A stretch of 50,890 bases of DNA from Bacteroidaceae bacterium (GTDB lineage: Bacteria; Bacteroidota; Bacteroidia; Bacteroidales; Bacteroidaceae), in assembly GCA_017546505.1 (NCBI GenBank), contig JAFYWV010000005.1, positions 1 through 50,890 on the forward strand, given 5' to 3'. The notes under the pieces were generated by a model, which did not search any database, had not been told where the DNA came from, and was given only the letters and a program-made list of their open reading frames with translations. Every line of letters begins with the position of its first letter. Position 1 is the first letter of the stretch. Made by a program: the position numbers and the translations under genes. Below are positions 5,701 to 26,949 of the stretch, piece after piece.

Positions 5701-5793
5701 TGAGCGCAAGTATATTGGAGGTTTACCTCAAATATAAGAATAAATTGTAAGATTATAGATTCTTTTCAGGTGGGAGTATTCCCGAAAACGGTT

Positions 5794-6381: not shown

Positions 6382-6391
6382 TTTATGGGCA

Positions 6392-6429
6392 TTTGTTTGA
6401 CTTAATTACAAATTTAGTGCTTATATTTG
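6392..6429. promoter_or_regulatory. Divergent promoter region (regulator-like gene / Ser-Thr kinase)
   Basis: On + there is TTTG (6396-6399) and, 22 bases on, a perfect -7 box TATATTTG (6422-6429) serving the kinase. On - the bases 6409-6416 read TAAATTTG, a perfect -7 box for the leftward gene. The two promoters overlap, so only one polymerase could bind easily at a time. Confidence 0.55.
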
Positions 6430-6468
6430 AAAAAATAAATCTTAATTTTTGTCTTTATTTGTCATTTT

Positions 6469-7638
6469 ATGTACGAGAGCGAAATATTCAAAGCTGTTAA
6501 TGATGGGGAGGGCTATGATTCGGGCTACTCCATGCCCGAGGTTTACGTAGCCACTGCATCGGCAGTGCTATATCGCGTGCGCAGAGCAGGAAAGTATTTT
6601 ATAATAAAGACACCCAAGGACAGCTCGCCCCAATCGTTGGCAATGCTGCAGCGCGAATATGAACTATCGCTTGGAAAAACGCACCCTAACATCGTGAATA
6701 TCTTTACATATGAGCCACATACCATTGTGGGTCCCGGAATTGTCATGGAGTATGTGGATGGGCGCACGTTGGCCGATTTTATGGCAGAGAACCCGCCTTT
6801 GGCTATGCGTGAACGTGTGTTTGTGCAGTTGCTGCAGGCTGTTGCGTACATTCACCGTTGTGGTATGGTGCATAATGATATAAAGCCTCAGAATATACTT
6901 GTTACACGTGCCGACAATGATGTGCGTCTCGTAGACTTCGGGCTGGCCAATGACGATGCACATTATCTTGCACGTACGCTCGGCTGCACTCCGGCATATG
7001 CGTCGCCCGAGTTGCTTGCACGACAAGAGGTCGATGCACGTAGCGATATTTATTCGCTTGGCGTTGTAATGCGCGCGCTCTTCGGTAGCCGCTATTCCCG
7101 CATTGCATCGCGTTGCCTCAGCCCAAGGAGGGAGAAGCGTTATGCTAATGTCGAAGCTTTGCATAATGCATTCAGACGTAATGTCGGACCTTTAAAGATA
7201 GTACTCATTGTGTTGCTTGTGTTGTTGCTGTTTGCACCGCTGTTCCACTTCTGTGCCAATGTCGTGGCTGATAAACGCCGTGTTGCCGCGCGCGATGCTA
7301 TGATTGTAAAGCTTGAAAGTGATATAATGAAAATGTATGAGTGCTGTTGCGACTCTGTAGGGCAAGTGCCTTATTATGAATTTGCTGTTAATCATATACT
7401 CTCTTTTATGGGCGCGATAAGCGAATATCAGACGGAGAATATATCTACCGTTCTTGATCCCGAACTGAATTTGGCCCTTACCACCGCATATATGAAAAAA
7501 CTGACAGCCTGCAGCGATACCCTGTGGCAAAAGGCGGGAGAGTTGAAACAGTTGCATAAGAGTGGATTGTCTCTCGAGGCACTGGTCTATTACGATAGTC
7601 TTGTCTGTGGTCGTCACAGATATGTACCTTATGAGTAG
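6469..7638 (+). CDS. Membrane-anchored eukaryotic-type Ser/Thr protein kinase
   Basis: The 389-residue protein has a cytoplasmic kinase domain (about 1-230), one membrane helix (about 244-264) and an extracytoplasmic tail of about 125 residues. Visible motifs are the ATP-binding Lys47 in FIIK, the catalytic loop HNDIKPQN (135-142, catalytic Asp137), VDFG (155-158, metal-binding Asp156) and TPAYASPE in the activation loop. The usual HRD arginine is Asn, and the glycine-rich loop is poorly formed. The tail has no PASTA repeats, only low-similarity helical sequence with several Cys. It is divergently paired with the predicted DNA-binding protein; its substrate is unknown. Confidence 0.85.
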   Translation: MYESEIFKAVNDGEGYDSGYSMPEVYVATASAVLYRVRRAGKYFIIKTPKDSSPQSLAMLQREYELSLGKTHPNIVNIFTYEPHTIVGPGIVMEYVDGRTLADFMAENPPLAMRERVFVQLLQAVAYIHRCGMVHNDIKPQNILVTRADNDVRLVDFGLANDDAHYLARTLGCTPAYASPELLARQEVDARSDIYSLGVVMRALFGSRYSRIASRCLSPRREKRYANVEALHNAFRRNVGPLKIVLIVLLVLLLFAPLFHFCANVVADKRRVAARDAMIVKLESDIMKMYECCCDSVGQVPYYEFAVNHILSFMGAISEYQTENISTVLDPELNLALTTAYMKKLTACSDTLWQKAGELKQLHKSGLSLEALVYYDSLVCGRHRYVPYE

Positions 7639-7654
7639 ATATTCTTATATTTCC

Positions 7655-7695
7655 CCCCCCCTGTTTGTTGACAATGAATAAACAAACTGGGGGGG
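7655..7695. terminator. C9/G7 hairpin after the kinase gene
   Basis: Arms 7655-7669 and 7681-7695 pair over 7 + 7 bp around one T-T mismatch, with an 11-base loop. The outer half is a run of C paired with a run of G. It starts 17 bases after the kinase stop. No clear T-run follows. Confidence 0.5.
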
Positions 7696-7908
7696 TATAA
7701 TATCTGCTTTTGCAAATAGTGTCAGCACTTTCTGAATCTATTGTTTGTGGTGTCGGTTTTCTTCTTTATGCAATCAGTAACTCAAATGACAAAAAAGACA
7801 AAAAAAAGACAAAAAAAGAAATATCCTTTTGTCCTATATTTGTAAAGTGTTAAAAAAAAGCAACAGACTCTTGTGTTTTGTTAATTTATTTTAGTAATAT
7901 TGCATTGT

Positions 7909-8125
7909 TGAAATACAAATAAAACACGCGAGTGTTTGACATTCTCGCTGATGAACCTAGGAAATTCATTAACGGAAAGAGAATTCAAACCCTGTCGCAA
8001 GGTGTCGTGCATACATGTGTCATGTGTGCGTGGCTACTATTAGCGTAGGCTGTTGCTTTTCTCTTTTTCAGGGTTTTCCTAGGACCTATCAGCGGAGATT
8101 AAGTAATTAGTCTGCGCTTCTTTTA
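7909..8125 (+). ncRNA. Candidate structured small RNA, 6S-RNA-like
   Basis: Hand folding gives one long rod. Stems from outside to inside: 7944-7952 with 8088-8097 (one bulged G), 7956-7964 with 8075-8083 (9 bp), 7974-7983 with 8059-8068 (10 bp), a large open region (about 20 and 24 nt), then an apical stem 8004-8017 with 8021-8034 (14 bp with wobbles, 3-nt loop). Stacked stems around a central bubble in about 190 nt are typical of 6S RNA, which binds RNA polymerase. A terminator-like hairpin (8091-8118) with a T-rich tail closes it and competes with the outer stem. A weak promoter precedes it. Ends are estimated; the 6S identity is inferred from structure only. Confidence 0.5.
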
Positions 8126-8130
8126 TTATA
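8091..8130 (+). terminator. Terminator-like hairpin at the end of the candidate small RNA
   Basis: Arms 8091-8102 and 8107-8118 pair with one G-G mismatch and one wobble around a 4-base loop, followed by a T-rich tail (TCTTTTATTATA). Confidence 0.5.
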
Positions 8131-8181
8131 TACTCTGGAGCGTAGTATTGTGGTTTCTGATAAATGTAAAACTTAAATACT

Positions 8182-8748
8182 ATGAAAAAAACATTCTTTT
8201 TTTTGCTTTTGAGTGCAGGGCTTGTTTTTGGCTCTTGTGGCAAAAACTCGGAGAAGAAACTTGATGAGGCTTTCTCTAAAGCAGTATCGTGTGCCGAACT
8301 GGGCACCGTTGAGTACACAATTACCAAGCTTGTCATTGCCGATGACGATGCTTTTTACAAGTTTGGTGACAGGAAGATTATATTCTCTTGCACCACTACA
8401 ATGAAGGCCGGCATAGACCTCAAGGATTTCAAGAGAGAAGATGTTGTGGTGTCGAAGGATGGCAAGAGCATTAATGTGACATTGCCACAACCAAAGATTC
8501 TTTCATTCAATATGTCGGCCGAGGATATAAAACTTGAGTTTGCTAAAGTCAGTGGTTTGCGCGCCGGTTTCAATACCGATGAACGCAACAACTTGTTGAA
8601 ACAGGGAGAGAAAGCTATTCTTGAGGATGCACCTAATTTAGGAATCTATGAGGATGCCAAAGAAAATGCAACCGATTTCTTTAAAACACTTCTTGCCCAG
8701 TGCGGATATGAGAACGTAAATATTGCTTTCGTAGGCGACGAGGTTTAA
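8182..8748 (+). CDS. DUF4230-family lipoprotein
   Basis: The 188-residue product starts with a signal peptide and a lipobox ending in VFGSCG (Cys19), so it is probably a lipid-anchored envelope protein. The rest fits DUF4230: CAELGTVEYTITKLV, then KAGIDLKDF, VTLPQPKILSF and a C-terminal helical part. DUF4230 has no known function. It opens the accessory island, 34 bases before a second DUF4230 gene, and has its own promoter-like box at 8143-8150. Confidence 0.75.
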   Translation: MKKTFFFLLLSAGLVFGSCGKNSEKKLDEAFSKAVSCAELGTVEYTITKLVIADDDAFYKFGDRKIIFSCTTTMKAGIDLKDFKREDVVVSKDGKSINVTLPQPKILSFNMSAEDIKLEFAKVSGLRAGFNTDERNNLLKQGEKAILEDAPNLGIYEDAKENATDFFKTLLAQCGYENVNIAFVGDEV

Positions 8749-8781
8749 GGTTAATTGTTTACCGTTAAAAAAATATAGATT

Positions 8782-9684
8782 ATGGATACAAATAATAATA
8801 TTCAGGACAATACAAACAGCCAGAATACCCCACAGGATAAAAAAACTGCGGCAGGAGAGGCTTTTGATGCTGCAAAGAATGTTGCAAAGGCTACCGGTAC
8901 GGCTGTGAAAGGTACAGTTAAGACTGTTACCGGTTTTGCAAAAGTTGTTACCTTTATTTTTAGTAATTTGCCTTTGGTGGGCGGCGTTATTGCTGTTTTA
9001 GCATTAGGTTCGCTGTTGCTTTTTAATCCATTTGACTGGAATCTTTCGTTCTTTGGTGGCCCCGAGATTGAAAAGACAGAGAATGTTGTACAGGAGGTGA
9101 AGAAAATCTCGGAATTCACAACCGCTTGCTACTACGAGGAGTCTGTTCTCAAGAGCGAGAAGATTACAGTGGGCAAGACTTGGTTCGGTGTTAAGACCGA
9201 TGATGTGGTTGATGCCATTGTACTTACAGTGAAGTGTAAGGTACGTGCCGGTTTTGACCTCTCTATGCTTGGCGATAATGATTTGATTGTTGCTGGTGAT
9301 TCTGTAAGCATCAAATTGCCGTCTCCGAAGATTTTTGATGTGATAAGCAATCCTTCTGACTATAAGATATTCGAGGAATCGGGCGATTGGAGTCACGAGG
9401 AGATTGTAGCCTTGCAGGTCGATGGTAAGCAGAAGGTGTTGAATAATGCTCTTGACAGCAATATACTTGAGAAGGCAAACACCATAGGCAAGGAGCGTAT
9501 TGTAGCGCTGTTCACCGCAATGGGATTTAGAGTTGTAACTGTAGAACTCTCCGATGTTCCGGCACGTGAGCAAGAACCTGCTGCATCTGTCGATGTCGTT
9601 ATGCCCGAAAATGCGCCTGCTGTTGAGGAAGTGCCTGCGGTAGAAGAACAAATGCCGATTGATACACTCTCACAAGTATTATAA
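8782..9684 (+). CDS. DUF4230-family protein with membrane helix
   Basis: The 300-residue protein has a polar N terminus rich in Asn, Gln, Thr and Lys (1-52), a hydrophobic membrane segment (about 55-80), a DUF4230 domain (about 95-255: CYYEESVLKSEKI, KVRAGFDLSMLG, VSIKLPSPKIFDV) and an acidic Pro/Glu/Val tail (about 262-300). The helix should place the DUF4230 domain on the outer face of the inner membrane. With the preceding gene it forms a lipoprotein/membrane-protein pair sharing a domain. Confidence 0.75.
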   Translation: MDTNNNIQDNTNSQNTPQDKKTAAGEAFDAAKNVAKATGTAVKGTVKTVTGFAKVVTFIFSNLPLVGGVIAVLALGSLLLFNPFDWNLSFFGGPEIEKTENVVQEVKKISEFTTACYYEESVLKSEKITVGKTWFGVKTDDVVDAIVLTVKCKVRAGFDLSMLGDNDLIVAGDSVSIKLPSPKIFDVISNPSDYKIFEESGDWSHEEIVALQVDGKQKVLNNALDSNILEKANTIGKERIVALFTAMGFRVVTVELSDVPAREQEPAASVDVVMPENAPAVEEVPAVEEQMPIDTLSQVL

Positions 9685-9703
9685 TGCTACAAATGATATA
9701 ATT

Positions 9704-9886
9704 ATGGTACTTTTTGATATAGGGGCTTTATTGTTCTTGACTGGCCTTTTTTTGGTAATATATACCCTCTTCAAGAAAGCACCTGGAGCAGCTATACTCT
9801 TCGTTATAATGTCGTTGATTGGAGGCGTGTTGATGCTTATTGCGTATTATGGGGTTATGGGTAACAAATCGATATTTGATTTTTGA
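9704..9886 (+). CDS. Small two-helix membrane protein
   Basis: This 60-residue protein is almost wholly two hydrophobic helices (VLFDIGALLFLTGLFLVIYTL and AAILFVIMSLIGGVLMLIAYY) joined by a short basic loop (FKKAPG). I chose ATG 9704 because the longer frame (ATG 9659) would overlap the end of the DUF4230 gene and add a polar, non-membrane N terminus. No family is recognised. It sits between DUF4230 and the OmpA-fusion gene. Confidence 0.6.
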   Translation: MVLFDIGALLFLTGLFLVIYTLFKKAPGAAILFVIMSLIGGVLMLIAYYGVMGNKSIFDF

Positions 9887-9932
9887 TTTTGCAATATAAA
9901 CTTAAACATTAATAATATAAAACAAAAAAGCT

Positions 9933-11246
9933 ATGGCGGATTTTATTTTGGATGGCCGTACAAAGGTAAAGACCTTTAAAGCAGAGTTTAAGGCGAACTT
10001 TGGTGCTACTCTTCGTGTGTACACAAATGTTGCTTGTGAAGGAGAGCAAGCCAATGACGAAGCTACACTTGCATCTATCCGTGCCGAGGGATACTCCGGT
10101 GGTGAGTTCTCGGTCAAGGGAAACATGAAGGTGAGTTCTTTTGAAAAAAAAGTTGCCGAACTATACGGTATCGGTGTCCAGGTGGCAAATGCCGACGATA
10201 CCGAGTTTGCCGATGACGCGGCGACGCTTATGGGTGCTGCCACAACAGCATCGGCCGAAAGTGGACACGGACATATCATCGAAACCCCGGCTGCAGCCGA
10301 TGCTGCGCCTAAGGTAGAGGCTTCTGCTGCAGAACTTGCAAGTGCGCGTGTAAGAGTATATGGCAAAGCGCAGAACCGTACAGCATTGGGTATTGTACAC
10401 GCATATATGGTAATGTACCCACAGGCTACATTGGAGGATTTGCGCAAGGCATTTCCCAATGCAATAAACCCGGATAAAGGCAGTGATGAAATTTTTATCT
10501 ATGCCGAGGAAAAGGGCGCAACAGGCAATTGGAACAACTATTTCAAGGGTGAGGATGAGTTGCTCACAACAGGCGACGGTCACAAAGTTGCGTTTGTAAT
10601 GATGTGGACAAAGCCTAACTTTGAACGCATTGTATCTCACGCAAAACAGTATGGCATTCTTGTTGCCGATTTTGAGAAGGCCGATGGTGGTGCCAAGAAG
10701 GGTGGTTTCCGTCTTGAGTATCTTAACGGTTACGTTCCACCGGTACCTGGAAAGAAAAAATCTTTCTTGTGGTTGTGGATTCTCATTATCCTTTTACTCG
10801 TGGGCATCATCGCATTCTTCGCATTACGTAAGCCCCAGGTGGTAGAGGTTGAGAAGGTTGTCGAGGTAGAGAAAATCGTAGAGGTTGAAAAGCTTGTCTA
10901 TGTGGACAGGATTGAGGAGATTGAAAAGAACTTCAATGCTGCCAAGTTCCTGAAGGGAAAGGCCGACCTTTCCGAGGATGCCAAGTTTGTTCTCCACGAC
11001 CTTGCAAAGGAGATGCAGAAGCATCCCGAGGTAAGGTTGCGTATCGTAGGCCACACATCAGCAGAGGGGGATCCCGCATTCAACCAGAAACTTTCACAGG
11101 AGCGTGCCCAGGCTGCCGTTGATTTCATTGTTGGTCGTGGCGTGGATGCAAACCGTCTTGAGGCAGAGGGTAAGGGGTCAAGCGAGCCTATTGATGAGAA
11201 TAACCCCGAGGCCAACCGCCGTACAGAGTTTATTATCCTTGATTGA
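9933..11246 (+). CDS. Two-half-repeat domain - central domain - membrane helix - OmpA fusion protein
   Basis: The 437-residue protein has no signal peptide. Residues 1 to about 95 are the island's two-half-repeat domain (LDGRTKVKTFKAEFKANFG, later YGIGVQVANADD). An Ala/Glu linker is followed by a central domain (about 138-265: IVHAYMVMYPQATLEDLRKAFP, DGHKVAFVMMW) like the C terminus of the nuclease-like protein at 14651. A membrane helix (about 278-298) is followed by tandem VEVEK repeats (301-332) and an OmpA/MotB domain (about 335-437: IVGHTSAEGDPAFNQKLSQE, NRRTEF). The predicted topology puts the first two domains in the cytoplasm and OmpA in the periplasm, probably on peptidoglycan. Confidence 0.85.
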   Translation: MADFILDGRTKVKTFKAEFKANFGATLRVYTNVACEGEQANDEATLASIRAEGYSGGEFSVKGNMKVSSFEKKVAELYGIGVQVANADDTEFADDAATLMGAATTASAESGHGHIIETPAAADAAPKVEASAAELASARVRVYGKAQNRTALGIVHAYMVMYPQATLEDLRKAFPNAINPDKGSDEIFIYAEEKGATGNWNNYFKGEDELLTTGDGHKVAFVMMWTKPNFERIVSHAKQYGILVADFEKADGGAKKGGFRLEYLNGYVPPVPGKKKSFLWLWILIILLLVGIIAFFALRKPQVVEVEKVVEVEKIVEVEKLVYVDRIEEIEKNFNAAKFLKGKADLSEDAKFVLHDLAKEMQKHPEVRLRIVGHTSAEGDPAFNQKLSQERAQAAVDFIVGRGVDANRLEAEGKGSSEPIDENNPEANRRTEFIILD

Positions 11247-11269
11247 TAACCTTTTAATTATTACACAAT

Positions 11270-11419
11270 ATGGCAGTGAAGAAAACTACAGTCAAGAAGA
11301 CCAAAGATGGTACTGTTGACAAACGTACAAAAGAGGGTAAGGCTATCGCTGAACGTATGGCAAAGGCGCGTGCCGAGAAGAACAGCCTCAAGAACAGAAT
11401 TAAAAGATTGTTTAAGTAA
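11270..11419 (+). CDS. Small, very basic protein (49 aa)
   Basis: A complete frame from ATG 11270 to TAA 11417 encodes 49 residues, about 40% Lys or Arg (start MAVKKTTVKKTKDGTVDKRT, end NRIKRLFK). It begins 23 bases after the OmpA-fusion gene and ends 18 bases before the TerB-like gene, after an A/T-rich leader. The composition resembles the H1-like tails of the proteins at 16498 and 19554, so nucleic-acid binding is plausible. No family is recognised. Confidence 0.55.
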   Translation: MAVKKTTVKKTKDGTVDKRTKEGKAIAERMAKARAEKNSLKNRIKRLFK

Positions 11420-11437
11420 AGATTACATTTTTGGAAT

Positions 11438-11848
11438 ATGAAAACAGATATCAGACATATTGCAGCATTGGTGGCAACATCAATCTGGGCCGATGGCGAA
11501 TATGATGCCGCTGAGAAGATTGTTGTGGCTGAAATTGCAGATGCATTTGAGTTGAATGCCGACGAGTTTGCAGCAACTGTTGAGGCTGAACTTGCAGTTA
11601 TTGAGCCAATGAACGAGGACGAGGTAAATGCCTATATCCTTGAACACTCGGCGGAGGTGGATGACGAAGAAGCCGAGATGTTGTTGCAGGCTGTTCTTCA
11701 GGTGGTTATTGTCGATGGCATCCTGGGCGATGAAGAGGTAGAGAACATCCTTTCAATTGCTTCGGCTCTTGGACTCGATGAATCACGCGCAGTGCTTATG
11801 CTTGCCGACCTTGTAAAGGATGAACCTGAACTGCAGATTGAACTCTAA
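11438..11848 (+). CDS. TerB-like protein
   Basis: The 136-residue, acidic, all-helical protein resembles the TerB (tellurite resistance, calcium-binding-like) family. Two similar halves each carry a D-G-x-x-x-x-x-E segment: WADGEYDAAEKIVVAEIADA and VDGILGDEEVENILSIASAL, followed by GLDESRAVLMLADL. TerB proteins occur in membrane-linked stress and phage-resistance clusters. No other ter gene is visible here. A hairpin (11864-11891) follows. Confidence 0.7.
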   Translation: MKTDIRHIAALVATSIWADGEYDAAEKIVVAEIADAFELNADEFAATVEAELAVIEPMNEDEVNAYILEHSAEVDDEEAEMLLQAVLQVVIVDGILGDEEVENILSIASALGLDESRAVLMLADLVKDEPELQIEL

Positions 11849-11863
11849 GTGAAGCTTACATAT

Positions 11864-11891
11864 CCCCGGGAATGTATCACCCTTCCCGGGG
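11864..11891 (+). terminator. GC-rich hairpin between island genes
   Basis: CCCCGGGA (11864-11871) pairs with TCCCGGGG (11884-11891) around a 12-base loop, 15 bases after the TerB-like stop. No T-run follows, so it may be a partial terminator or an RNA-processing or stability element. Confidence 0.4.
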
Positions 11892-11925
11892 TACAAATAA
11901 ATTAATACACAAGAAAAATACGACT

Positions 11926-12288
11926 ATGGGACTTTTGAACAATTTGATGGACCGTTTCAAGAACGCTGAATTCACTGTTGCTCCACAAAAGAAACTCAAG
12001 ACAATTTCGGCCGATTTCAAGAAGGCTTTTGAACTTACATTGGTATTTTACAAAGGTGCAGCCATTGCCGATGGCGATTTGACACTTGCCGCCCTCAACA
12101 AAAAGACCACAAAGGATGTAAAAGCCAATGCCGACGGCCTCAAAATCAAAGCCAGCATGAAGGTGGGCGCTGCCGAGAAACTCTTCGACACAAACTTTGG
12201 CGTTACCGTGCAGATTAAGGATGCCAAAGGCACCAAACTCATTCCAAATGAGATTACCATTGGTCAGGCTGCACGCGGTGAGTATTAA
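11926..12288 (+). CDS. Stand-alone two-half-repeat domain protein, divergent member
   Basis: The 120-residue product has a short N-terminal extension (MGLLNNLMDRFKNAE) and both half-repeats: half A FTVAPQKKLKTISADFKKAF with DLTLAAL, half B LKIKASMKVGAAEKLFDTNFGVTVQI with NEITIG. I chose ATG 11926, which follows an A-rich leader; the longer frame (11872) would run through the preceding hairpin. It is the most divergent family member in the island. No signal peptide or membrane segment is seen. Confidence 0.65.
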   Translation: MGLLNNLMDRFKNAEFTVAPQKKLKTISADFKKAFELTLVFYKGAAIADGDLTLAALNKKTTKDVKANADGLKIKASMKVGAAEKLFDTNFGVTVQIKDAKGTKLIPNEITIGQAARGEY

Positions 12289-12333
12289 AAGATGAGCCTC
12301 AAAATATGTTTAGGCATTGATTGGGGAATAACA

Positions 12334-12341
12334 TACTTTTG
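12334..12341 (+). promoter_or_regulatory. -7 promoter box ahead of the first twin gene
   Basis: TACTTTTG matches TAnnTTTG exactly and lies 64 bases before the ATG at 12406. No good TTTG is at the expected spacing, so this is only a possible internal promoter of the island. Confidence 0.35.
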
Positions 12342-12379
12342 GAGTGGAAATGTTCTGATACAGATACAATAAACATTAT

Positions 12380-12771
12380 TATTAACCATTTAAAATTTTA
12401 CAACTATGGCAGAATTTAAGTTGGATGGCCGTATGAAGGTAAAGACCTTGAAGGCTAATTTCAAGAAAGAGTTTGGTTCAACACTCCGTGTTTACAAGAG
12501 CGAGAGCTGCAAGGGCGCTTTTGCCGATGATGACGCTACATTGGCATCACTCCGTGCCGAGGGCAAGAAGGGTGGCGAACTCACTGTTGGTGGCAACCTG
12601 CGCGTTGGTAACTTCGAGAAGAAGATTGCCGAGCTCTATGGTATCGGTGTTCAGGTAGCTAACGCTGACGACAGCAAGCTCGCCGACAACGACATCACTC
12701 TTGTTGCAGCAGGCAAGTAATCCTGTACAACAGAATTCAGGTATGTGGGGCTTGGGTGTCCCACATATCAC
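12380..12771 (+). repeat. 392-bp direct repeat, copy 1
   Basis: This block, containing the whole gene at 12406 with 26 bases before it and 51 after, recurs at 14199-14590, offset 1819 bases. The two differ at about 12 positions: 10 silent third-codon changes and two in the 3' flank. The shared 3' flank can form a hairpin (12742-12767, 8-bp stem). Confidence 0.9.
12406..12720 (+). CDS. Stand-alone two-half-repeat domain protein (twin 1)
   Basis: This 104-residue protein is the domain alone. Half A (5 to about 50) reads FKLDGRMKVKTLKANFKKEFG and ends ADDDATLASL. Half B (about 57-104) reads LTVGGNLRVGNFEKKIAELYG and ends ADNDITLVAA, so the halves align with G, K/R-V, F/Y-G, V and AD-x-D-x-TL in the same places. 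It has no signal peptide or membrane helix and is probably cytoplasmic. Its protein sequence is identical to that of 14225. Function unknown; the two copies flank a nuclease-like gene. Confidence 0.8.
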   Translation: MAEFKLDGRMKVKTLKANFKKEFGSTLRVYKSESCKGAFADDDATLASLRAEGKKGGELTVGGNLRVGNFEKKIAELYGIGVQVANADDSKLADNDITLVAAGK

Positions 12772-12808
12772 ATTAATTGACCATTATTTCCAAATGGGTT
12801 ACCAGTCT

Positions 12809-14167
12809 ATGAAAACCGCTATTGTACTTAACAGAATGTATGTTGGGGATTATCTCGCGTCCAACCTGGGGCACGAGATAATAAACCTGTACCAGGCCGA
12901 CAATGGCGGTAACTACATTTACCTCAATTCAACCGGTGATTTCGTTAAGGCTCATCAGGGCAAGGTTGGCTATATGCTCTTTGTGAAATACTATGGCATT
13001 GGCGAGGTTGAGGTCATTGGCATGGCAACGGGGCTGAACGATGTATACTGTGCCGACAGGCAGTTTGCCGACAAGTACAAAGGTGTGAACAAGGAAATCT
13101 TTGCCAAGCAACAACAGTTTGTGAAAGAAGAGGGTGGAGTATCCTATGGCGGTGTTTCCATCTTTGACATCTTTGGCGAGGCGGGGCAGCAGAGCGTATT
13201 CATAACCTACAAGGCCGACAAGGTGTATGTGCCAAAAAGGGATAAGAGACTGTTCATACGCTTTCATATGGCAGATGCAAGCAGATACCCCGCTCACGAC
13301 GAGGGTGATGTTGTTGTTGCACTCACCGGATACCAACAGGCAAAGGCATCGCTGAAGCAATACATATACCCCGAGGGTACATATGCCGGTGATCTGGCAA
13401 AGCAGAACGTGGAGGCCAAGCGCGAGGATTATAGCAGAATCTTCAACACGCTTGTCAATGACTCCACGTTGTGGCAGGAGAGCAATAACCGTGTCGATGC
13501 CGAGGAACTGGAGAGTGTGAATGAGCGTAAGGTGTCGTTGTTCGACATTTGCCGGATACAGAACGACGAGAACAAGTTCTCCAATGCGCTTGCATATTTT
13601 ATGCAGCAGTATCCCGCTTTGTGGCAAGGTTTCTTTGCCCGATATGGTGTCTCGCTTGGCGAGGGCTTTACTGTGGCACGCGAGGAGATGTCGAAGATTG
13701 AGGATAGCAAATATAACCACAAGAAATACCCTAGTGGCGGCCGCATAGACCTTATGATAAGCACCGCAAACGAGCTGGTTGTCATTGAGAACAAGATAAA
13801 GTCCGACATCAACAGCATAGATGAGGATTGTGAGGGAAAGCAGTTGCGCCGCTATTACAACTACGCAATGTGGCTTGCCGGGAACAAGGAGTGTGATGAC
13901 TATGGCAAAGTGCCACGTTTTTTCATTCTCACACCAAAGTATAACATACCGGTGATAGAGGATGCCGGGATGAGGGAACTGTATACCATTGTCACTTATG
14001 CCGATGTATATGACTACCTGACGGAAATGTACAGTGAGTTTGCCGGCGACAGCAATTTCGTGGCATTCTACGAGGCTATGTACCGTCACACTCACGACAA
14101 TGTGAACGGCTATCTCTATCACGAGATGCAGGAGACGTTTTTCAGGAGGATAAAGGAATTGTTATAG
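12809..14167 (+). CDS. PD-(D/E)XK nuclease-family protein with N-terminal beta-rich domain
   Basis: The 452-residue protein has an N-terminal domain I do not recognise (about 1-190, starting MKTAIVLNRMYVGDYLASNL, beta-rich) and a C-terminal PD-(D/E)XK_4-like domain (about 245-400). Candidate catalytic residues are Asp314 in GGRIDLMI and Glu327/Lys329 in VVIENKIKSD, followed by QLRRYYNYA. ATG 12809 (or 12794) is preferred: the longer frame begins inside the twin gene and reads through its repeated 3' flank. It lies between the twin genes. DNA cleavage is expected from the family but the target is unknown. Confidence 0.8.
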   Translation: MKTAIVLNRMYVGDYLASNLGHEIINLYQADNGGNYIYLNSTGDFVKAHQGKVGYMLFVKYYGIGEVEVIGMATGLNDVYCADRQFADKYKGVNKEIFAKQQQFVKEEGGVSYGGVSIFDIFGEAGQQSVFITYKADKVYVPKRDKRLFIRFHMADASRYPAHDEGDVVVALTGYQQAKASLKQYIYPEGTYAGDLAKQNVEAKREDYSRIFNTLVNDSTLWQESNNRVDAEELESVNERKVSLFDICRIQNDENKFSNALAYFMQQYPALWQGFFARYGVSLGEGFTVAREEMSKIEDSKYNHKKYPSGGRIDLMISTANELVVIENKIKSDINSIDEDCEGKQLRRYYNYAMWLAGNKECDDYGKVPRFFILTPKYNIPVIEDAGMRELYTIVTYADVYDYLTEMYSEFAGDSNFVAFYEAMYRHTHDNVNGYLYHEMQETFFRRIKELL

Positions 14168-14198
14168 GAACTTAATATTATCATTTAAGAGAAATTTA

Positions 14199-14590
14199 TA
14201 TTAACCATTTAAAATTTTACAACTATGGCAGAATTTAAGTTGGATGGCCGTATGAAGGTAAAGACCTTGAAGGCTAACTTCAAGAAGGAGTTTGGTTCAA
14301 CACTCCGTGTTTACAAGAGTGAGAGCTGCAAGGGTGCTTTTGCCGATGATGACGCTACATTGGCATCACTCCGTGCCGAGGGCAAGAAAGGTGGCGAGCT
14401 CACAGTCGGTGGCAACCTGCGCGTTGGTAACTTCGAGAAGAAGATTGCCGAGCTCTACGGTATCGGTGTTCAGGTAGCTAACGCTGACGACAGCAAGCTC
14501 GCCGACAACGACATCACTCTTGTTGCTGCAGGCAAGTAATCCTGTACAACTGAATTCAGGTATGTGGGGCTTGAGTGTCCCACATATCAC
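14199..14590 (+). repeat. 392-bp direct repeat, copy 2
   Basis: Second copy of the block at 12380-12771, containing the gene at 14225. The hairpin in the 3' flank is kept, with one change in the loop. Confidence 0.9.
14225..14539 (+). CDS. Stand-alone two-half-repeat domain protein (twin 2)
   Basis: Its 104-residue product is identical to that of 12406; the 10 DNA differences are all silent. The 5' leader (ACCATTTAAAATTTTACAAC before ATG) is also kept. It sits between the two nuclease-family genes, 57 bases after the first. Silent-only change suggests the protein sequence is selected, or that gene conversion keeps the copies alike. Confidence 0.8.
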   Translation: MAEFKLDGRMKVKTLKANFKKEFGSTLRVYKSESCKGAFADDDATLASLRAEGKKGGELTVGGNLRVGNFEKKIAELYGIGVQVANADDSKLADNDITLVAAGK

Positions 14591-14650
14591 GAAAGATGAA
14601 ACAAAATAATTGACCATACTGTGGAATGCAATCCTTCATTCATAGGTTAT

Positions 14651-15799
14651 ATGAGTAAAGATTATGACAAAATAATAGAGGCTTTTGAAAAGGATGCCGA
14701 TGTGCATCATTTAAGAGAGCTGTATTTCCACAGAACTGTGCCCGAGATATTTGGAATATGCCGAAGCGAATTGGCTCATAGTGCATTTTTGGCTTGGCTT
14801 TTTAATCCGGAAGCAAATGAGTTTGGCACGGAGCCTCTTCTGTTGCTCCTGCAACTATGTGGGGCTTATGACCGTTGCATGCTTACAGGGGTGAGGAACT
14901 GCAAAGTTGAAACCGAGAAGCATGTCAAGGTTGGTGACTTGAAGGGTCGGGTGGATATATTTGTTGAGTGCGATGTTGTTTGCGGGGGAATGGCCGAGCA
15001 TTTGATGCTGATTATAGAAAACAAGGTCTATTCGTGTGAGCATCGTTCGCAGACAGAGATATATCACAAATATTTTAAACAGTTTGAGGGTAGCAAAAAA
15101 GTGTATATTTTTCTTACACCGCCTCAGCACGAGCATGACGCCGATTGTGAGGAGTATATACATTTGACTTATCAGGATTTATTGGATAACATATTTGAAC
15201 CATTGCTTAATATGCCGGCTCTTTCTCCAAGAACGCGATTGATACTCGATGAGTATGTAAAGTCGCTCACGGTGCCTATGGAGCAACTTGTTGACTGTGA
15301 TGGGACAAAAACATTGGAATCTGCTATTTTGGCAGTGAGTATGAAAGAAAAAGAGGTACTCAGGTCGTTCTGGGATAAATATAAGGGATTGATTTTGGCA
15401 GCGGTGAATACATTGGCCGAGGATGAGGATGATGCATACTCCGGCGGCGCTGTAGAGGTGAAGAAGGCCTTGAGAACAAGGGACTATTCAAAATACTCGG
15501 TGAATGGTGCCGGCTCGTATGGCAAAGGCCGAATGGTTGAGGCTGTGGTGAACAAATATGTTGAGCAGAACCCCGGCACAACGGTGCAGAAACTGAAAGA
15601 GGTGTTCCCCGAGCATCTGCAGGGCAGCAACTTCATCAAGGACTCAAGCGAGAAAATAACCGACATGAAACGCTACTACGAATCGGCTTTGCCCGGCGGC
15701 GCGAAGTTCTACATAAGCAACCAGTGGGGAGCGCAGACCGACGGTTTTGTGGCTTACGTGAACGAAAATATCGACGGCATTACGGTGACTAAAGTGTAA
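14651..15799 (+). CDS. PD-(D/E)XK_4-like nuclease-family protein with C-terminal accessory domain
   Basis: The 382-residue protein opens with the nuclease-like domain (FGICRSELAHSAFLAWLFNP, Asp102 in GRVDIFVE, Glu123/Lys125 in LIIENKVYS, IYHKYFKQF, KKVYIFLTP). After a helical region comes an accessory domain (about 285-382: SKYSVNGAGSYGKGR, VVNKYVEQNPGTTVQKLKEV, FVAYVN). This resembles a domain at the end of restriction-type proteins and the central domain of the OmpA fusion at 9933. ATG 14651 is preferred over the GTG at 14621. Substrate unknown. Confidence 0.8.
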   Translation: MSKDYDKIIEAFEKDADVHHLRELYFHRTVPEIFGICRSELAHSAFLAWLFNPEANEFGTEPLLLLLQLCGAYDRCMLTGVRNCKVETEKHVKVGDLKGRVDIFVECDVVCGGMAEHLMLIIENKVYSCEHRSQTEIYHKYFKQFEGSKKVYIFLTPPQHEHDADCEEYIHLTYQDLLDNIFEPLLNMPALSPRTRLILDEYVKSLTVPMEQLVDCDGTKTLESAILAVSMKEKEVLRSFWDKYKGLILAAVNTLAEDEDDAYSGGAVEVKKALRTRDYSKYSVNGAGSYGKGRMVEAVVNKYVEQNPGTTVQKLKEVFPEHLQGSNFIKDSSEKITDMKRYYESALPGGAKFYISNQWGAQTDGFVAYVNENIDGITVTKV

Positions 15800-15838
15800 A
15801 TTAATAAAGGATTCTACAATTTTTTAAAACTTATAACT

Positions 15839-16081
15839 ATGAGCAAAGAGTATTACAAGAAAAGAATTATTGACCTGCGTGCTGATATTGCAAAGGAGAA
15901 AGAGGCCAAGAAACGTGATAATGAGAACTATTCACGTTACATAAAGAACGCTTCTTCGCCATCTACAAAGGCAAGTTACCGAAAGAGCAAGATTGACGCG
16001 GCTGCACGCCACGACCGCCAGATTGAGTACCTGAAACGCCAGATTGAGAGCGCGAAGGATAGCCTCAAACGTTGCAGGTGA
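15839..16081 (+). CDS. Small coiled-coil protein (80 aa)
   Basis: This highly charged, helical protein (MSKEYYKKRIIDLRADIAKE ... IEYLKRQIESAKDSLKRCR) has heptad-like spacing in two helices joined by a Ser/Pro turn (NASSPSTKAS). It has no signal or membrane segment. It follows the nuclease-like gene by 39 bases, after an A/T-rich leader, and ends 8 bases before the next gene. No family is recognised; a structural or adaptor role is possible. Confidence 0.65.
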   Translation: MSKEYYKKRIIDLRADIAKEKEAKKRDNENYSRYIKNASSPSTKASYRKSKIDAAARHDRQIEYLKRQIESAKDSLKRCR

Positions 16082-16089
16082 TTGGGGAT

Positions 16090-16410
16090 ATGGTAGTATT
16101 GGCCTATATAATAAACCTGTTGGCACCGGTAGTTAACTTCCTTGGGATGCTTGGGCTGTGTGCATGTATAATATATAAGGATCTTTACATTCTTGTCATT
16201 GCCGGCGTTATGGCTGTGGTGGGGCTGGTGTTCGGTATATTTGCGTACCAGCTGGACATACCGCCACGCTGGTTTTGGTCGAAATCGAAAAACGATTTGT
16301 TCCGTTTCTCGGTGACAGCAGTCTTGGGATATGCCGGTAGCTTGGCAATGTGGCCTTGTGCAATATATATGATATCGGTTTTAGCCAATGGCGTGGCCAA
16401 TGCTGCATAG
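16090..16410 (+). CDS. Small membrane protein, about three helices
   Basis: The 106-residue product contains three hydrophobic segments (about 5-30, 33-55, 78-105) and a short polar loop (PPRWFWSKSKNDLF). ATG 16090 is preferred over the in-frame TTG at 16072, which would overlap the previous gene. No family is recognised. Confidence 0.6.
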   Translation: MVVLAYIINLLAPVVNFLGMLGLCACIIYKDLYILVIAGVMAVVGLVFGIFAYQLDIPPRWFWSKSKNDLFRFSVTAVLGYAGSLAMWPCAIYMISVLANGVANAA

Positions 16411-16497
16411 GCAATTTCTCCAATACCATGTTAGGCTTGGATGAAAAGTGCGAATACATGATAATGAAATCAATAACAAACCATTAATATTAAAATT

Positions 16498-17037
16498 ATG
16501 GCAACAACAGCAAAGAAAACGACAGCAGCGAAAACGACTGCCACTACAAAGAAAACAACTACTGCAAAGCCTGCAGCAAAGAAGACAACAACAGCAAAAC
16601 CTGTAGCAAAGAAGACCGCAACGGCAGCTAAGCCTGCAGCAAAGAGTACTGATATTTCTGTAACAGGTAACAAGAAGTTGGATACCTTGCGCAAGGAGTT
16701 TAATAAGAAGTTTCCTTGTCTGCAACTTGGTATATTCTATAGCTATGCCCGTCAACAGGTTGCCAAGGGTGAGAGTATTACCCAAATTGATGGTACAAAG
16801 ACTTTGGCATCAGTACGCCGTGCCGATTCAGGTGGAGATATTTCAATCTCTGGAAACAAAAAGATAAAGACACTTGAAAAGGAATTTGATACCGTATTTG
16901 GCTTGTATTGTCAAGTTTGTTATTATTCTCCTGAAGGACGCGGTTACTATACCAATAGTACAACCGATGAAATGACGCTGGCTGCTTTCAATGAACAGTG
17001 TGAAAAACGCGGATGTCCAAAGGATAAGTGGAAATAA
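16498..17037 (+). CDS. H1-like tail plus two-half-repeat domain protein (paralogue 1)
   Basis: Residues 1 to about 50 are low-complexity Lys/Ala/Thr/Pro repeats (units such as TTTAKPAAKKT), like histone H1 tails and bacterial H1-like DNA-binding proteins. Half A follows (about 53-110: ISVTGNKKLDTLRKEFNKKF ... TLASVRRADSG) and then half B (about 112-179: ISISGNKKIKTLEKEFDTVF ... MTLAAF). The 179-residue protein is closely related to that of 19554. The tail suggests binding to DNA or RNA; this is inferred from composition. Confidence 0.75.
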   Translation: MATTAKKTTAAKTTATTKKTTTAKPAAKKTTTAKPVAKKTATAAKPAAKSTDISVTGNKKLDTLRKEFNKKFPCLQLGIFYSYARQQVAKGESITQIDGTKTLASVRRADSGGDISISGNKKIKTLEKEFDTVFGLYCQVCYYSPEGRGYYTNSTTDEMTLAAFNEQCEKRGCPKDKWK

Positions 17038-17049
17038 AAATTTAATGTT

Positions 17050-17211
17050 ATGAAAATTCCAGGATTGTCTTTCTCGCTTAAGAGAGCTTTGGGTGTAACT
17101 GCTGTAAAACAGAAAAATGCCCGCAAGACCGGCATTCCGCTCACAAAGCAGGGGGTGGAGCGCAAGATTGGCGGTGCGATAGTGAAGGCTTTTACCGGTA
17201 AAAAGAGATAG
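17050..17211 (+). CDS. Small basic protein (53 aa)
   Basis: A frame from ATG 17050 to TAG 17209 encodes 53 residues (MKIPGLSFSLKRALGVTAVK ... GGAIVKAFTGKKR). It is Lys/Arg-rich with an amphipathic C terminus, starts 12 bases after the H1-tail gene and ends 4 bases before the next start. The Gly/Lys/Ile-rich end resembles the C terminus of the coiled-coil protein at 19126. No function can be assigned. Confidence 0.55.
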   Translation: MKIPGLSFSLKRALGVTAVKQKNARKTGIPLTKQGVERKIGGAIVKAFTGKKR

Positions 17212-17215
17212 GGCT

Positions 17216-17818
17216 ATGAGAAAACTTTTATTTCTGTGCTTGGTGGTGCTTTTTCTCTCCTGTGAATCGGCAACCGACAAAATGGAGGCTGCCTTGAGCT
17301 ATGGCGAGCTGAGCAATGCCGAGACTCTGCTGTCCGATATATCGGGAAGTGAGAAGTATAGATATGGTTCACGCCTGATTGATGAATATCTGGCGATAGG
17401 GAATGTGGACAAGGCCATCTATGTGTTCAACTACTTGACACCGCATTGTTCAATGTATGAGATAAAATACAGCAACCTCTATTCAACGGCTACGTATACA
17501 CAGGAGAATGCAAAGAAGATTTACAACGCGTTGCTTGATGAGGAGCGTTATGACGAGTGTTGGAACTTCCACCCGTTGAGTTATGAAACCGAGTCATACC
17601 CGGGGAATGCACCCGACTATTTCTCGTATATGAGCGATGTCATTGTTCATATGTGTGCTCGCGGACAGTATGACGAGGCACGCAGGTTTATGATGCAGAA
17701 ACGTGTGTGGTTCCTCAATAATGTGGACAACAATGAGTGGGGGCATGAATACAAGGAGTGCTCATATTCCGTTGTGTGTGATAAACTTGAGAATGTGTAT
17801 AACAGTTTGATAGAATGA
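17216..17818 (+). CDS. Lipoprotein with possible TPR-like helices
   Basis: The 200-residue protein has a short signal peptide and lipobox (VLFLSC, Cys16). Its body is helical with paired-helix segments (MEAALSYGELSNAETLLSDI; LIDEYLAIGNVDKAIYVFNY), compatible with tetratricopeptide-like repeats, though too few to be certain. Its stop overlaps the next start by 4 bases (ATGA), so the two lipoproteins are probably translationally coupled. Confidence 0.65.
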   Translation: MRKLLFLCLVVLFLSCESATDKMEAALSYGELSNAETLLSDISGSEKYRYGSRLIDEYLAIGNVDKAIYVFNYLTPHCSMYEIKYSNLYSTATYTQENAKKIYNALLDEERYDECWNFHPLSYETESYPGNAPDYFSYMSDVIVHMCARGQYDEARRFMMQKRVWFLNNVDNNEWGHEYKECSYSVVCDKLENVYNSLIE

Positions 17819-19113
17819 GGTATACTATGAGGTATATTTTTATGCTGCTTTTGACTGTGGCAACAGTGGCATGTGCTCCCAAAGTGGAAAGGAGAGGTGT
17901 GCTGCTGTCGGAGCGCGAGGCTTATCGCTATGACAGGGCGGTAGCCGCTGTTGAGAAGGTTGAGGCTTTGTTGGAGAAGATGGCTGCCACTCCAACACAA
18001 GAGGGGATGCTGGAGCTGCTGACCGAGGCAAAAAAGTTGGAGTATAATTATGACGACACCGGGATGGGGGTAGAGACAATGATGCGCTGCGACTCACTGA
18101 AAATGCGTATAGATGACTGTAAGCGGATGGCAGTGTCGTTTACAGAGAATAGGGTCGTTACTGTTGGGAAAATTGTTGCAGTGGATGTGACAGAGCAGTT
18201 GCTGGAGGAAAAGGAATATTATCCGGTATATTTGAAGAAAGGCGAGAAATTTTTCTGCACTGTAGAGGCTTCGGAACCGGTGACTGTGAAACTGTATAAT
18301 GCCGATACCGAGAAATTGATGAAGTCGTACAAAGGACGTAATGTGTCCGATTCGCTTTCCGTCTCAAATTCTGCAGTCTACCTGTTGGAGATTGTACCGC
18401 AGGGAAAGACGTATGTGAGCGCTTCGTTGGGCTATAGATGTGCCGACGCGGCATCGCTCTACGGCCGTCCTTCCATAAGAACCGAGCAGGTGGAGTGTAG
18501 CAAGGGTAATGTGGGGGCGGTTGCTGTTCCCGGTATTGCAATGCGTAAATGCTTTGAGGAACCGCGCAAGTTTACTTTGCGAGGGCAGATAAAAGCAGCT
18601 TTCTCGGGCAATGCACAAGCGCTGGTGGCTGTGACTGTACCGGCAGGCGCAACTGATATCCTTTACTCTATGCGCATTGCAACAAGTGAGCAGGACCGTT
18701 CTGATGATGGTCAGTTCCATGATAACCTGACACGCTCTTACAAACGTATAAAATTCCTGGGATTGCCTCTTTATGAAAAGAGTTCTAGCAATGGCCTGCT
18801 GAATACTCTACTTGACGATAACCGCCCGATACGTGAGGAGGATGCTTATTGCAATATGTATGTGTTCCGCAACAAAACGCAGGCGAAGAAGTTCCAGGAT
18901 GGCACAAAGACGGCTGCGGGGTTGGATTATGATGTGGATTATTCGACACTTGGCACGCAGTCATGCAACGGACGAATACCTGTGAATGGGGCAAAGACTA
19001 TTTATTTGGCCTTTGAGAACGAACGCATGAGATATACCAATTATCTGTGGGTTGAGGTTGAGGCTGTTGTTCCGAATACAGTATATTATAGAACAAAATA
19101 TAGTGTAAATTAA
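17815..19113 (+). CDS. Lipoprotein of unknown function (432 aa)
   Basis: An N-terminal signal (MRYIFMLLLTVATVACAPK) carries a lipobox with Cys20 or so. A helical segment (about 25-105) precedes a beta-rich region (about 120-430) containing FTENRVVTVGKIVAVDVTEQ and FLGLPLYEKSSS. The start may be ATG 17815, overlapping the upstream stop, or the Met at 17827 just before the hydrophobic core. I recognise no family. With the preceding gene it adds an envelope component to the island. Confidence 0.65.
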   Translation: MRYTMRYIFMLLLTVATVACAPKVERRGVLLSEREAYRYDRAVAAVEKVEALLEKMAATPTQEGMLELLTEAKKLEYNYDDTGMGVETMMRCDSLKMRIDDCKRMAVSFTENRVVTVGKIVAVDVTEQLLEEKEYYPVYLKKGEKFFCTVEASEPVTVKLYNADTEKLMKSYKGRNVSDSLSVSNSAVYLLEIVPQGKTYVSASLGYRCADAASLYGRPSIRTEQVECSKGNVGAVAVPGIAMRKCFEEPRKFTLRGQIKAAFSGNAQALVAVTVPAGATDILYSMRIATSEQDRSDDGQFHDNLTRSYKRIKFLGLPLYEKSSSNGLLNTLLDDNRPIREEDAYCNMYVFRNKTQAKKFQDGTKTAAGLDYDVDYSTLGTQSCNGRIPVNGAKTIYLAFENERMRYTNYLWVEVEAVVPNTVYYRTKYSVN

Positions 19114-19125
19114 ATCTATTATGTT

Positions 19126-19536
19126 ATGTTGACTTTGACTACGGAGGAGAAAGAACGTGTAGAGCGTTTGTTGCAAGCCGAAATAAAGAAGTTGGAGCTG
19201 GCAATAGAGAATACCAAACAGGAGTTGCTTGAACTAAAGAAGCCTAAAGGTTTTTTTGCTTCAAATAAAACAAAAGAGATAAAAAATACAGAAAAGTCTC
19301 TTCGAGAACTTGAAATACGACTTATTGATTTGCAGGCAATGACTGCTTCCGATTTCTATGCGGAGTATAAAGCAAAGGAAAAAAAAGAAAACATCAAGAA
19401 GGTGACTAGCGGTATTTTCTCTATAGCAGGTGACGTTGTGGAAAATACAGGAAAAGTAATCCCTGCTGTTGGAGGTATTGCCGGTAAGGTAATAGGTAAA
19501 GGATTGAAAATTATAGGTAAGAAAATAGGTCAGTAA
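19126..19536 (+). CDS. Coiled-coil protein with Gly-rich hydrophobic C terminus (136 aa)
   Basis: Residues 1 to about 90 form a charged coiled coil (EEKERVERLLQAEIKKLELA; KNTEKSLRELEIRLIDLQAM). Residues about 95-136 are a Gly/Ile/Val/Lys-rich segment (VGGIAGKVIGKGLKIIGKKI) that could be amphipathic or membrane-active. It lies between the lipoprotein and the second H1-tail gene. No family is recognised. Confidence 0.6.
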   Translation: MLTLTTEEKERVERLLQAEIKKLELAIENTKQELLELKKPKGFFASNKTKEIKNTEKSLRELEIRLIDLQAMTASDFYAEYKAKEKKENIKKVTSGIFSIAGDVVENTGKVIPAVGGIAGKVIGKGLKIIGKKIGQ

Positions 19537-19553
19537 TAAATATTATTTTTTTT

Positions 19554-20087
19554 ATGGCAACAACTACAAAAAAAACAACAGCGAAACCTACAGCAAAGAA
19601 GGCTACTGCTGCCAAACCTGCAGCAAAGAAGACAATATCAACTGCGAAACCTGCGGCGAAGAAGACAACGACTGCAAAGCCTGTAGTAAAGAGTACTGAG
19701 ATTACTGTAAGCGGTAATAAGAAGGTTGGAACGCTTAGAAAAGAATTTAATGCAAGGTTCCCTTATTTAAATCTCTGGGTTTGTTATAGTTATGGCCGTG
19801 ATATGGTGAAAAAAGGCGAAACTCTATCGGCGCGTGTTCCTGATGATAGAACTTTGGCTTCTGTGCGCCGTGCCGATTCAGGTGGTGATATTTCAATCTC
19901 AGGAAACAAAAAAATCAAGTCTTTGGAAAAGGAGTTCGATACAGTATTCGGATTGTATTGCCAGGTATGTTATACAAATTCTGTCGGTGACAGATTCTAT
20001 ACTTCGGGTAGCTGCGATGACAAGACTCTTGCTACGTTCAATGCTGAATGCGAGAAGAATGGTGGCAAAAAAGGTCTCTGGAAGTGA
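19554..20087 (+). CDS. H1-like tail plus two-half-repeat domain protein (paralogue 2)
   Basis: The 177-residue paralogue of 16498 has a Lys/Ala/Thr/Pro tail (about 1-48), half A (ITVSGNKKVGTLRKEFNARF ... RTLASVRRADSG) and half B (ISISGNKKIKSLEKEFDTVF, ending KTLATFNAECEKNG). The stretch TLASVRRADSGGDISISGNK is identical in both paralogues. Half A is more divergent, notably around Trp-Val-Cys-Tyr. The stop overlaps the GTG start of pcp by 4 bases. Confidence 0.75.
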   Translation: MATTTKKTTAKPTAKKATAAKPAAKKTISTAKPAAKKTTTAKPVVKSTEITVSGNKKVGTLRKEFNARFPYLNLWVCYSYGRDMVKKGETLSARVPDDRTLASVRRADSGGDISISGNKKIKSLEKEFDTVFGLYCQVCYTNSVGDRFYTSGSCDDKTLATFNAECEKNGGKKGLWK

Positions 20088-20704
20088 AATTGTTACGCAT
20101 TCTATTGACCGGCTTTGAGCCGTTCGGGAAATATAAGGAGAATTCATCGTGGGCAGTTGCCGAAAAGGTAGCTGCCTGTGGCGTTGTTGGTGCCGAGGTC
20201 ATGGCAAAGCGTTTGCCTGTGAGTTTTGCGGGCGTAGGCACTACTTTGCGTAAGGCGGTGGAGGAGTGCCACCCCGATGTTATAATTATGCTTGGGCAGT
20301 GTGCCGGTGTCGATTATATCAAATTGGAACGCATAGCCATTAATATGATGGATGCAACTACCCCCGACAATGACGGAAACCTCCCCGATGAGGAGCCGAT
20401 ATGTGCTACAGGTGCTGCTGCGCTTTTTACAAATACTGATATAAAGGATTTGCGCAGGGTGGTTGAGGGACAGGGGATTCCGGCCAAGGTGTCGAACAGC
20501 GCGGGGCTTTATGTGTGTAACCGCACATATTATGAGGCTTTGCGGCTTTGCAATGAAAGGCCCGGGATGAAGGCCCTGTTTGTTCACTTGCCGCTGTATG
20601 AGGGGCAACCGTCGGCGGCAGAGGATCAACCCACAATGCCGCTTGATGATATGTTGAAGGCTGTTTGGGGGATAACAACTTGCATATGCCGAAGACGTAA
20701 ATAA
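20084..20704 (+). CDS. pcp: Pyroglutamyl-peptidase I
   Basis: This C15 cysteine peptidase removes N-terminal pyroglutamate from peptides. The 206-residue length fits the family. Motifs: ILLTGFEPFGKY at the N terminus, MLGQCAGVDYIKLERIA, the active-site Cys block SNSAGLYVCNRTYYEAL and FVHLPLYEGQ near the end. The GTG at 20084 overlaps the previous stop and gives the family N terminus; the longer frame (20048) lies inside the H1-tail gene. Its overlap suggests read-through transcription from the island. Confidence 0.9.
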   Translation: MKLLRILLTGFEPFGKYKENSSWAVAEKVAACGVVGAEVMAKRLPVSFAGVGTTLRKAVEECHPDVIIMLGQCAGVDYIKLERIAINMMDATTPDNDGNLPDEEPICATGAAALFTNTDIKDLRRVVEGQGIPAKVSNSAGLYVCNRTYYEALRLCNERPGMKALFVHLPLYEGQPSAAEDQPTMPLDDMLKAVWGITTCICRRRK

Positions 20705-20786
20705 TGTAAAAGAAACACGATATTATAAACCCTTTGGATTTTTGATAAGGTTGCTGAATCAAAGGTGAAATCTTTAATCTGAAACT

Positions 20787-21593: not shown

Positions 21594-21635
21594 ACTCTTT
21601 AATACGATGTTAAAACAGCAAAATAAATTACACAG

Positions 21636-23342: not shown

Positions 23343-23367
23343 ATGTACAATAGACATAATATACAAA

Positions 23368-23640: not shown

Positions 23641-23644
23641 CTCT

Positions 23645-26937: not shown

Positions 26938-26949
26938 ACATTGTATACT

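Follow-up and report, generated by a model that had tools for sequence, protein, structure and literature searches.

What kind of genetic unit places one small domain in six neighbouring proteins, among nucleases, lipoproteins and cell-wall-binding parts? The question is raised by a 50,890-nucleotide stretch of a Bacteroidaceae bacterium (GenBank assembly GCA_017546505.1, contig JAFYWV010000005.1; hereafter the window), which is contig C28 of a 2.62 Mb draft genome (130 contigs, 86% complete). A preliminary description had proposed an accessory island at 8182..20087, with about 19 closely spaced genes on one strand and six products sharing a domain of two half-repeats, which we call DOM. The plus strand of this interval indeed carries 19 open reading frames (ORFs) that overlap slightly or lie no more than 117 bp apart, and sequence and profile searches recovered the six DOM products (genes starting at 9933, 11929, 12406, 14225, 16498 and 19554) and no other DOM place in the draft genome. 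The interval is part of one unit, but it was drawn too narrowly. Relatives and flank mapping add genes at 5794 (minus strand), 6469, 20048, 20787, 21636 and 23645, so that the island also has a helix-turn-helix (HTH) gene and a kinase at its start and channels and peptidases at its end. The whole island comprises about 25 genes and covers approximately 5777..24462 (no strand assigned; ends taken from flank homology to empty-site congeners). It is a real, mobile, modular and conserved unit.

Mobility is seen at the junction between udk and fba, which lie on one contig in 15 of the 31 genomes of our genus sample. Their spacing is 18,974 bp in the window genome; in the 14 other congeners it is 201-576 bp in 12, and 1.4 and 1.9 kb in two. 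When the island edges were aligned with two empty-site genomes, homology ended at about 5736-5776 and restarted at about 24465-24500. In one congener (G557) the same site is occupied by an island with different cargo, and a further congener (G144) carries an island elsewhere. In addition, an 88% identical copy of the island (locus L043; 13.9 kb aligned) sits between flanks (3.3 and 1.1 kb) unrelated to those of the window. Shared neighbours and insertion at several sites thus bear out the expectation that the gene set is conserved and movable among Bacteroidales. No integrase was found among the window proteins scanned with Pfam, and the junctions showed no target-site repeat. The mean GC content of the island is unremarkable. 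The left edge (5630-5776) is occupied by a short intergenic repeat, which recurs at about 1009-1118 of locus L124 and is present as a tandem in one congener; it is a possible recombination site. A phage or plasmid origin is unsupported, as DOM searches of phage, plasmid and viral-contig collections were empty. Nor was any gene seen that would point to a confined prophage, conjugation system or secretion locus, and these readings were dropped.

To place the island among its relatives, we searched 84,980 species genomes and kept 80 of 112 relatives as loci. At least 80 relatives are titled Bacteroidales, its families, or Bacteroidia/Bacteroidetes; most are metagenome-assembled genomes from the guts of ruminants, horses and other animals. 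Gene families were clustered over 81 loci (the 80 relatives and the window). Because no locus extends past its 10 kb flanks or its contig, the co-occurrence counts are all minimum values; the ORF caller favours the longest ORFs and dropped some small DOM genes, with DOM seen in 74 of these 81 DOM-selected loci. The most frequent family is a small charged protein, YYKKR (58 loci), followed by the channel CH2 (45), the OmpA protein (43), the kinase (40), the HTH gene (39), pyroglutamyl peptidase (29), the lipoprotein LP7 (27) and eight PD-(D/E)XK families (23). TerB, the channel CH1 and KAP NTPases each occur in 15 loci, and DUF4230 in 13. In 22 of the 23 loci with both kinase and CH2 (window included), the kinase precedes all other markers, and the HTH gene adjoins the kinase in all 34 loci with both, divergently in 17 and in tandem in 17. 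ORFs of at least 150 aa inside the spans are strongly biased to one strand (422 plus, 31 minus). A small form of the island also exists (L227: HTH-kinase-x-DOM-CH2-membrane protein). The neighbours of DOM therefore recur in relatives rather than being unshared and scattered, though orphans exist.

DOM is built from two homologous halves (hhalign 96.9-97.8%, score 55.7), the best of 30 column-shuffled controls scoring 11.5, which agrees with the half-repeats first described. It has no Pfam match, and its profile found nothing significant in the PDB. We read the domain, which ends in AAGK, as a probable protein-binding module of tandem half-ubiquitin-like (beta-grasp) type. The twin genes 12406 and 14225, which flank a nuclease gene, encode the same 104 residues and differ at 10 of 312 nucleotides, all in third codon positions; such silent-only differences indicate either strong selection on the protein or gene conversion. 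A profile search of all called proteins found a histone H1-like tail on 17 DOM proteins. The tails in the window, noted in the preliminary description, do match the histone-like model HC2, but only below its cut-off. The spread of DOM is patchy (6/151 family, 21/393 order and 11/395 phylum genomes). Lone DOM genes also occur outside islands in other families and orders (the distant loci L190, L191, L192, L194, L195 and L196 belong to other orders), so the domain is not confined to the island.

Beyond DOM, the islands share three further modules, namely W, Y and TerB. W spans about 60 residues and occurs on its own, in duplicate or in fusions, and Y spans about 130. Profile searches showed that the 43 OmpA proteins carry Y alone (29), W-Y (8) or DOM-Y (6), and the 15 KAP NTPases carry Y (10), W (3) or neither (2). 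Cytosolic leucine-rich-repeat (LRR) families carry W, DOM or TerB, while FGE-like and WG-repeat proteins carry DOM and, in some cases, also W. Of the 17 genomes in the order sample that match Y strongly, 12 also encode DOM, no more than 4 kb away on the same contig; over the whole sample DOM is found in 21/393 genomes. Y itself found no match in the PDB. Two sets of Y-like proteins lie elsewhere: nuclease-like proteins encoded away from islands, with a weaker match at their C-termini (L214-L219), and orphan Y-membrane-OmpA proteins in ordinary chromosomal surroundings in four genomes (L208, L209, L210 and L212).

These modules bear on whether the island has a common mechanism at all. It could instead be a gene-collecting hotspot, where an HTH-kinase-channel backbone gathers independent defence and other genes. 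Cargo does vary between loci, with 58 cargo clusters besides the core, and defence genes known to act alone are among them. Yet 227 genes inside the spans and 8 nearby join small domains to cargo that is otherwise unrelated (the spans being partly defined by DOM itself), and gene order and strand are conserved. We consider a mere hotspot unlikely.

We scanned 24 window island proteins with Pfam. The HTH-type regulator (5794..6381, minus strand; all other genes are on the plus strand) was recognised by motif reading, with no Pfam match above the cut-off. The Ser/Thr kinase (6469..7638; Pkinase 2.8e-32; PADLOC PD-T4-6 2.1e-37 and mad6 1.3e-37) has HNDIKPQN and DFG as its catalytic motifs, a single membrane helix (by eye) and an outer part at the C-terminus. 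It is followed by a DUF4230 lipoprotein (8182..8748; Pfam 2.3e-32), a DUF4230 protein with a membrane helix (8782..9684; Pfam 8.8e-23) and a small membrane protein (9659..9886; family in 4/81 loci). The wall-anchored adaptor (9933..11246) consists of DOM, Y, a membrane helix (by eye) and OmpA (6e-18); its DOM part matches the profile at 4.4e-37, and at 7.9e-37 in the close L043 relative. Next come a tiny basic protein (11270..11419; family in 7/81 loci), TerB (11438..11848; Pfam 5.6e-9), a diverged DOM (11929..12288; DOM profile 5.0e-34) and DOM twin A alone (12406..12720; 104 aa, found by sequence search). A PD-(D/E)XK nuclease (12809..14167; PDDEXK_4 1.8e-8; PADLOC PDC-S26 6.9e-10; family in 11/81 loci), for which an earlier TTG start at 12701 is also open, separates it from the identical protein of twin B (14225..14539). 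The second PD-(D/E)XK nuclease (14651..15799, with an earlier GTG start at 14621; PDDEXK_4 8.2e-15; PDC-S26 1.1e-25) ends in a Y domain (profile 1.8e-16), and this C-terminal part matches PADLOC PDC-S57 (4.5e-11). Pfam thus confirmed both DUF4230 proteins, OmpA, TerB and both PDDEXK_4 nucleases of the preliminary description.

Downstream lie YYKKR (15839..16081), a membrane protein (16072..16410; family in 18/81 loci), an H1-like Lys/Ala/Thr tail joined to DOM (16498..17037; DOM 3.8e-27; HC2 2.7e-5, below cut-off) and a second tiny basic protein (17050..17211; family in 14/81 loci). The lipoproteins LP26 (17216..17818; family in 7/81 loci) and LP7 (17815..19113) are the two reported earlier; by eye, the product of 8182 also has a lipoprotein signal, giving three. 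A coiled-coil-like small protein (19126..19536; family in 5/81 loci) and another H1-like tail with DOM (19554..20087; DOM profile 1.1e-25) precede pyroglutamyl peptidase I (20048..20704; Peptidase_C15 4.3e-48), whose start is uncertain and perhaps near 20084. The cation channels CH1 (20787..21593; Ion_trans 1.4e-44) and CH2 (21636..23342; Ion_trans 1.1e-19; KCNQ-like pore 4.7e-22) are relatives of voltage-gated channels. CH2, whose C-terminal half is unassigned, aligns with KCNQ2 over the pore but lacks the potassium signature GYG there. The pore pattern was found in only 32 of 51 channels; among these 32 of the CH2 family, none has GYG and 28 have QY(I/V)GDPG. A broken second copy of the CH2 start lies directly behind CH2 (23308..23601), part of it matching the intact L043 channel at 87%, and an M42-like peptidase (23645..24367; Peptidase_M42 0.001, below cut-off; family in 6/81 loci) comes last. 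A scan with a sigma-70-like promoter, a consensus unsuited to Bacteroidales, gave 56 sites vs 35 expected; the same promoter and terminator scan found no excess of terminators. Outside the island, a BspA-type LRR protein (26941-27984), of a kind found inside relatives' islands, lies beyond fba, and a transposase-like ORF (50255-50875; by eye) lies at the window end.

What might such a unit do? The cargo of relatives points to defence. GIY-YIG cargo (6/81 loci) matches CMoRE/PD-T4-3 (9u75, 4.4e-26 over residues 4-203 of 250; PADLOC 3.1e-39), and another cargo cluster (c50; 3/81 loci) matches AbaSI (4.2e-36) and also PvuRts1I. PvuRts1I-like nuclease and SRA domains are found in the cargo at Pfam values of 1.1e-30 and 1.3e-31, including a nuclease with an SRA domain inside a related island (L117:11330-12172), and one locus (L070) holds both the GIY-YIG and the AbaSI-like restriction families. 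The KAP NTPase matches PifA (PADLOC, 5.3e-33). A recognised nuclease family is present in 49 of 74 loci, and the window's own PD-(D/E)XK nucleases match candidate defence models (PDC-S26, PDC-S57). Given this defence-type cargo, defence is the best of the functions first proposed (defence, envelope-to-nucleoid signalling and stress granules), and we put the chances that the island is an anti-phage, or biological conflict, system at about even.

Several observations weigh against such a role. The remaining 25 of 74 loci have no recognised nuclease, and the window has neither a CMoRE-like nor an AbaSI-like gene. The kinase matches to defence models are generic, and the catalytic pattern HxDxKxxN was not matched in 8 of 40 kinases. 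The distance of 543 bp between the kinase and the gene that follows would allow for two transcripts. The empty DOM searches of phage, plasmid and viral collections mean that there is no sign of an arms race there. We also compared the 58 cargo clusters with 58 random flanking clusters using PADLOC (E 1e-5). Cargo matched 77 models and flanks 80, giving no raw excess; the test left out five clusters present in both sets, including KAP and the CMoRE-like GIY-YIG, and our guess is that some control matches are generic helicase matches. Pfam found 26 families in the same cargo set and 93 in the flanks, which are housekeeping, so that the cargo is mostly unannotated. Finally, orphan DOM genes have UspA, CBS-domain, oxidase or response-regulator genes beside them in six of the seven distant loci examined. 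The functional proposal of the preliminary description is therefore upheld in part, with relatives' cargo favouring defence and the PADLOC control and stress-gene neighbours telling against it.

The orphans and the PADLOC control would suit an envelope-to-nucleoid stress system, in which envelope or redox stress is signalled by the kinase and the wall-anchored protein. DNA would be processed or protected by TerB, H1-tailed DOM proteins and nucleases, with ions and amino acids adjusted by the channels and peptidases. TerB, DUF4230, lipoproteins and H1-like tails are all consistent with this, as is the island of the complete genome G489 (L228), which has no recognised nuclease in the stretch read. 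A housekeeping stress system, however, has no need of rapid swaps of nuclease families and adaptors. The patchy spread in the family and order, the type IV restriction homologues in the cargo and the lack of TerC/TerD, TerY or PP2C among the listed Pfam hits also argue against it, and we regard a stress role as rather doubtful. Bacteroidales are also known for interbacterial antagonism, and varied nucleases and channels could belong to a locus of effectors and antidotes aimed at other bacteria rather than phages. As Pfam scans revealed no secretion or delivery genes, and inspection by eye no secretion signals on the nucleases, this seems very improbable.

If the island does act in defence, the parts that sense phage damage or envelope stress may be the lipoproteins, the Y-membrane-OmpA protein anchored in the wall and the outer part of the membrane kinase. 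The small domains (DOM, W, Y and TerB) could then act with the kinase as plugs, so that each signal meets its proper effector. Interchangeable effectors (PD-(D/E)XK or GIY-YIG nucleases and KAP NTPases) would act on DNA or the infected cell, the two cation channels might depolarise that cell, and the H1-like tails may keep part of the DOM pool on DNA. More tentatively, the island may represent a new bacterial innate-immune network, spread horizontally among herbivore-gut Bacteroidales, in which tandem half-ubiquitin-like adaptors and plugs of the W, Y and TerB kinds connect swappable sensors and effectors to a receptor-like kinase and to a sentinel fixed in the cell wall. Cytosolic LRR proteins, WG-repeat proteins and lectin-like FGE proteins would be the sensors; type II/IV-like nucleases, KAP NTPases and cation channels with unusual filters would be the effectors. 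If true, this would be an undescribed multi-gene defence or alarm system, present on no fewer than 80 named contigs of Bacteroidales that come mainly from the guts of herbivores. Its adaptor code would be readable from sequence, such that the small domain on a nuclease, NTPase or repeat protein predicts its partner. A bacterial ubiquitin-like fold would act as a plug rather than a conjugated tag, and the island would lend itself to studying how signals at the envelope are passed on to nucleases and ion channels.

No description of this gene combination was found in the literature searched, which excluded most subscription papers and preprints, although parts of it resemble known systems. The island shares a TerB domain with tellurite-type Ter/TerY-P loci, but TerC, TerD, TerY, vWA and PP2C are absent from the listed Pfam hits, leaving the kinase only. 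DOM differs from the bacterial ubiquitin-like BfUbb (PDB 8hm1-8hm3) in being a cytosolic two-half repeat with no terminal Gly-Gly; no significant score placed both in one sequence family, and the conjugation partners ThiF, E2 and JAB were not among the listed Pfam hits. CMoRE/PD-T4-3 is reported to degrade phage DNA containing 5-hydroxymethylcytosine (5hmC) and its glucosylated form (5ghmC) (PMC12923530). Relatives' cargo matches this nuclease and AbaSI/PvuRts1I over most of their length and is putatively of the same kind, but these enzymes act alone, whereas the island homologues sit in a multi-gene unit and in relatives only.

In Zorya, ZorB wall binding and a nuclease are reported to be both needed, with an inner-membrane protein bearing a wall-binding OmpA-type domain coupled to nuclease effectors (PMC11890865). 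The island has a ZorB-like feature, OmpA (6e-18) behind a membrane helix (by eye). No MotA/ZorA-like motor is present among the Pfam hits of the window and cargo proteins, and the island differs in its cytosolic Y, W or DOM domains and its many nuclease families. Kaur et al. (2020, PMC7159879) describe effector-associated-domain (EAD) conflict systems, VMAP and iSTAND. There, EAD systems have the same small domain on effectors and neighbouring products, with the effectors swapped, and iSTAND systems place OmpA or other wall-binding domains behind a membrane helix. The vWA/MoxR core of EAD systems was not found above the cut-off in the 24 window proteins or in the 25 of 26 families listed for the 58 cargo clusters. 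In the island too, small domains (DOM, W, Y and TerB) occur on effectors and on neighbouring products, although it uses other small domains, has a membrane kinase and channels as its ends, and belongs to gut Bacteroidales.

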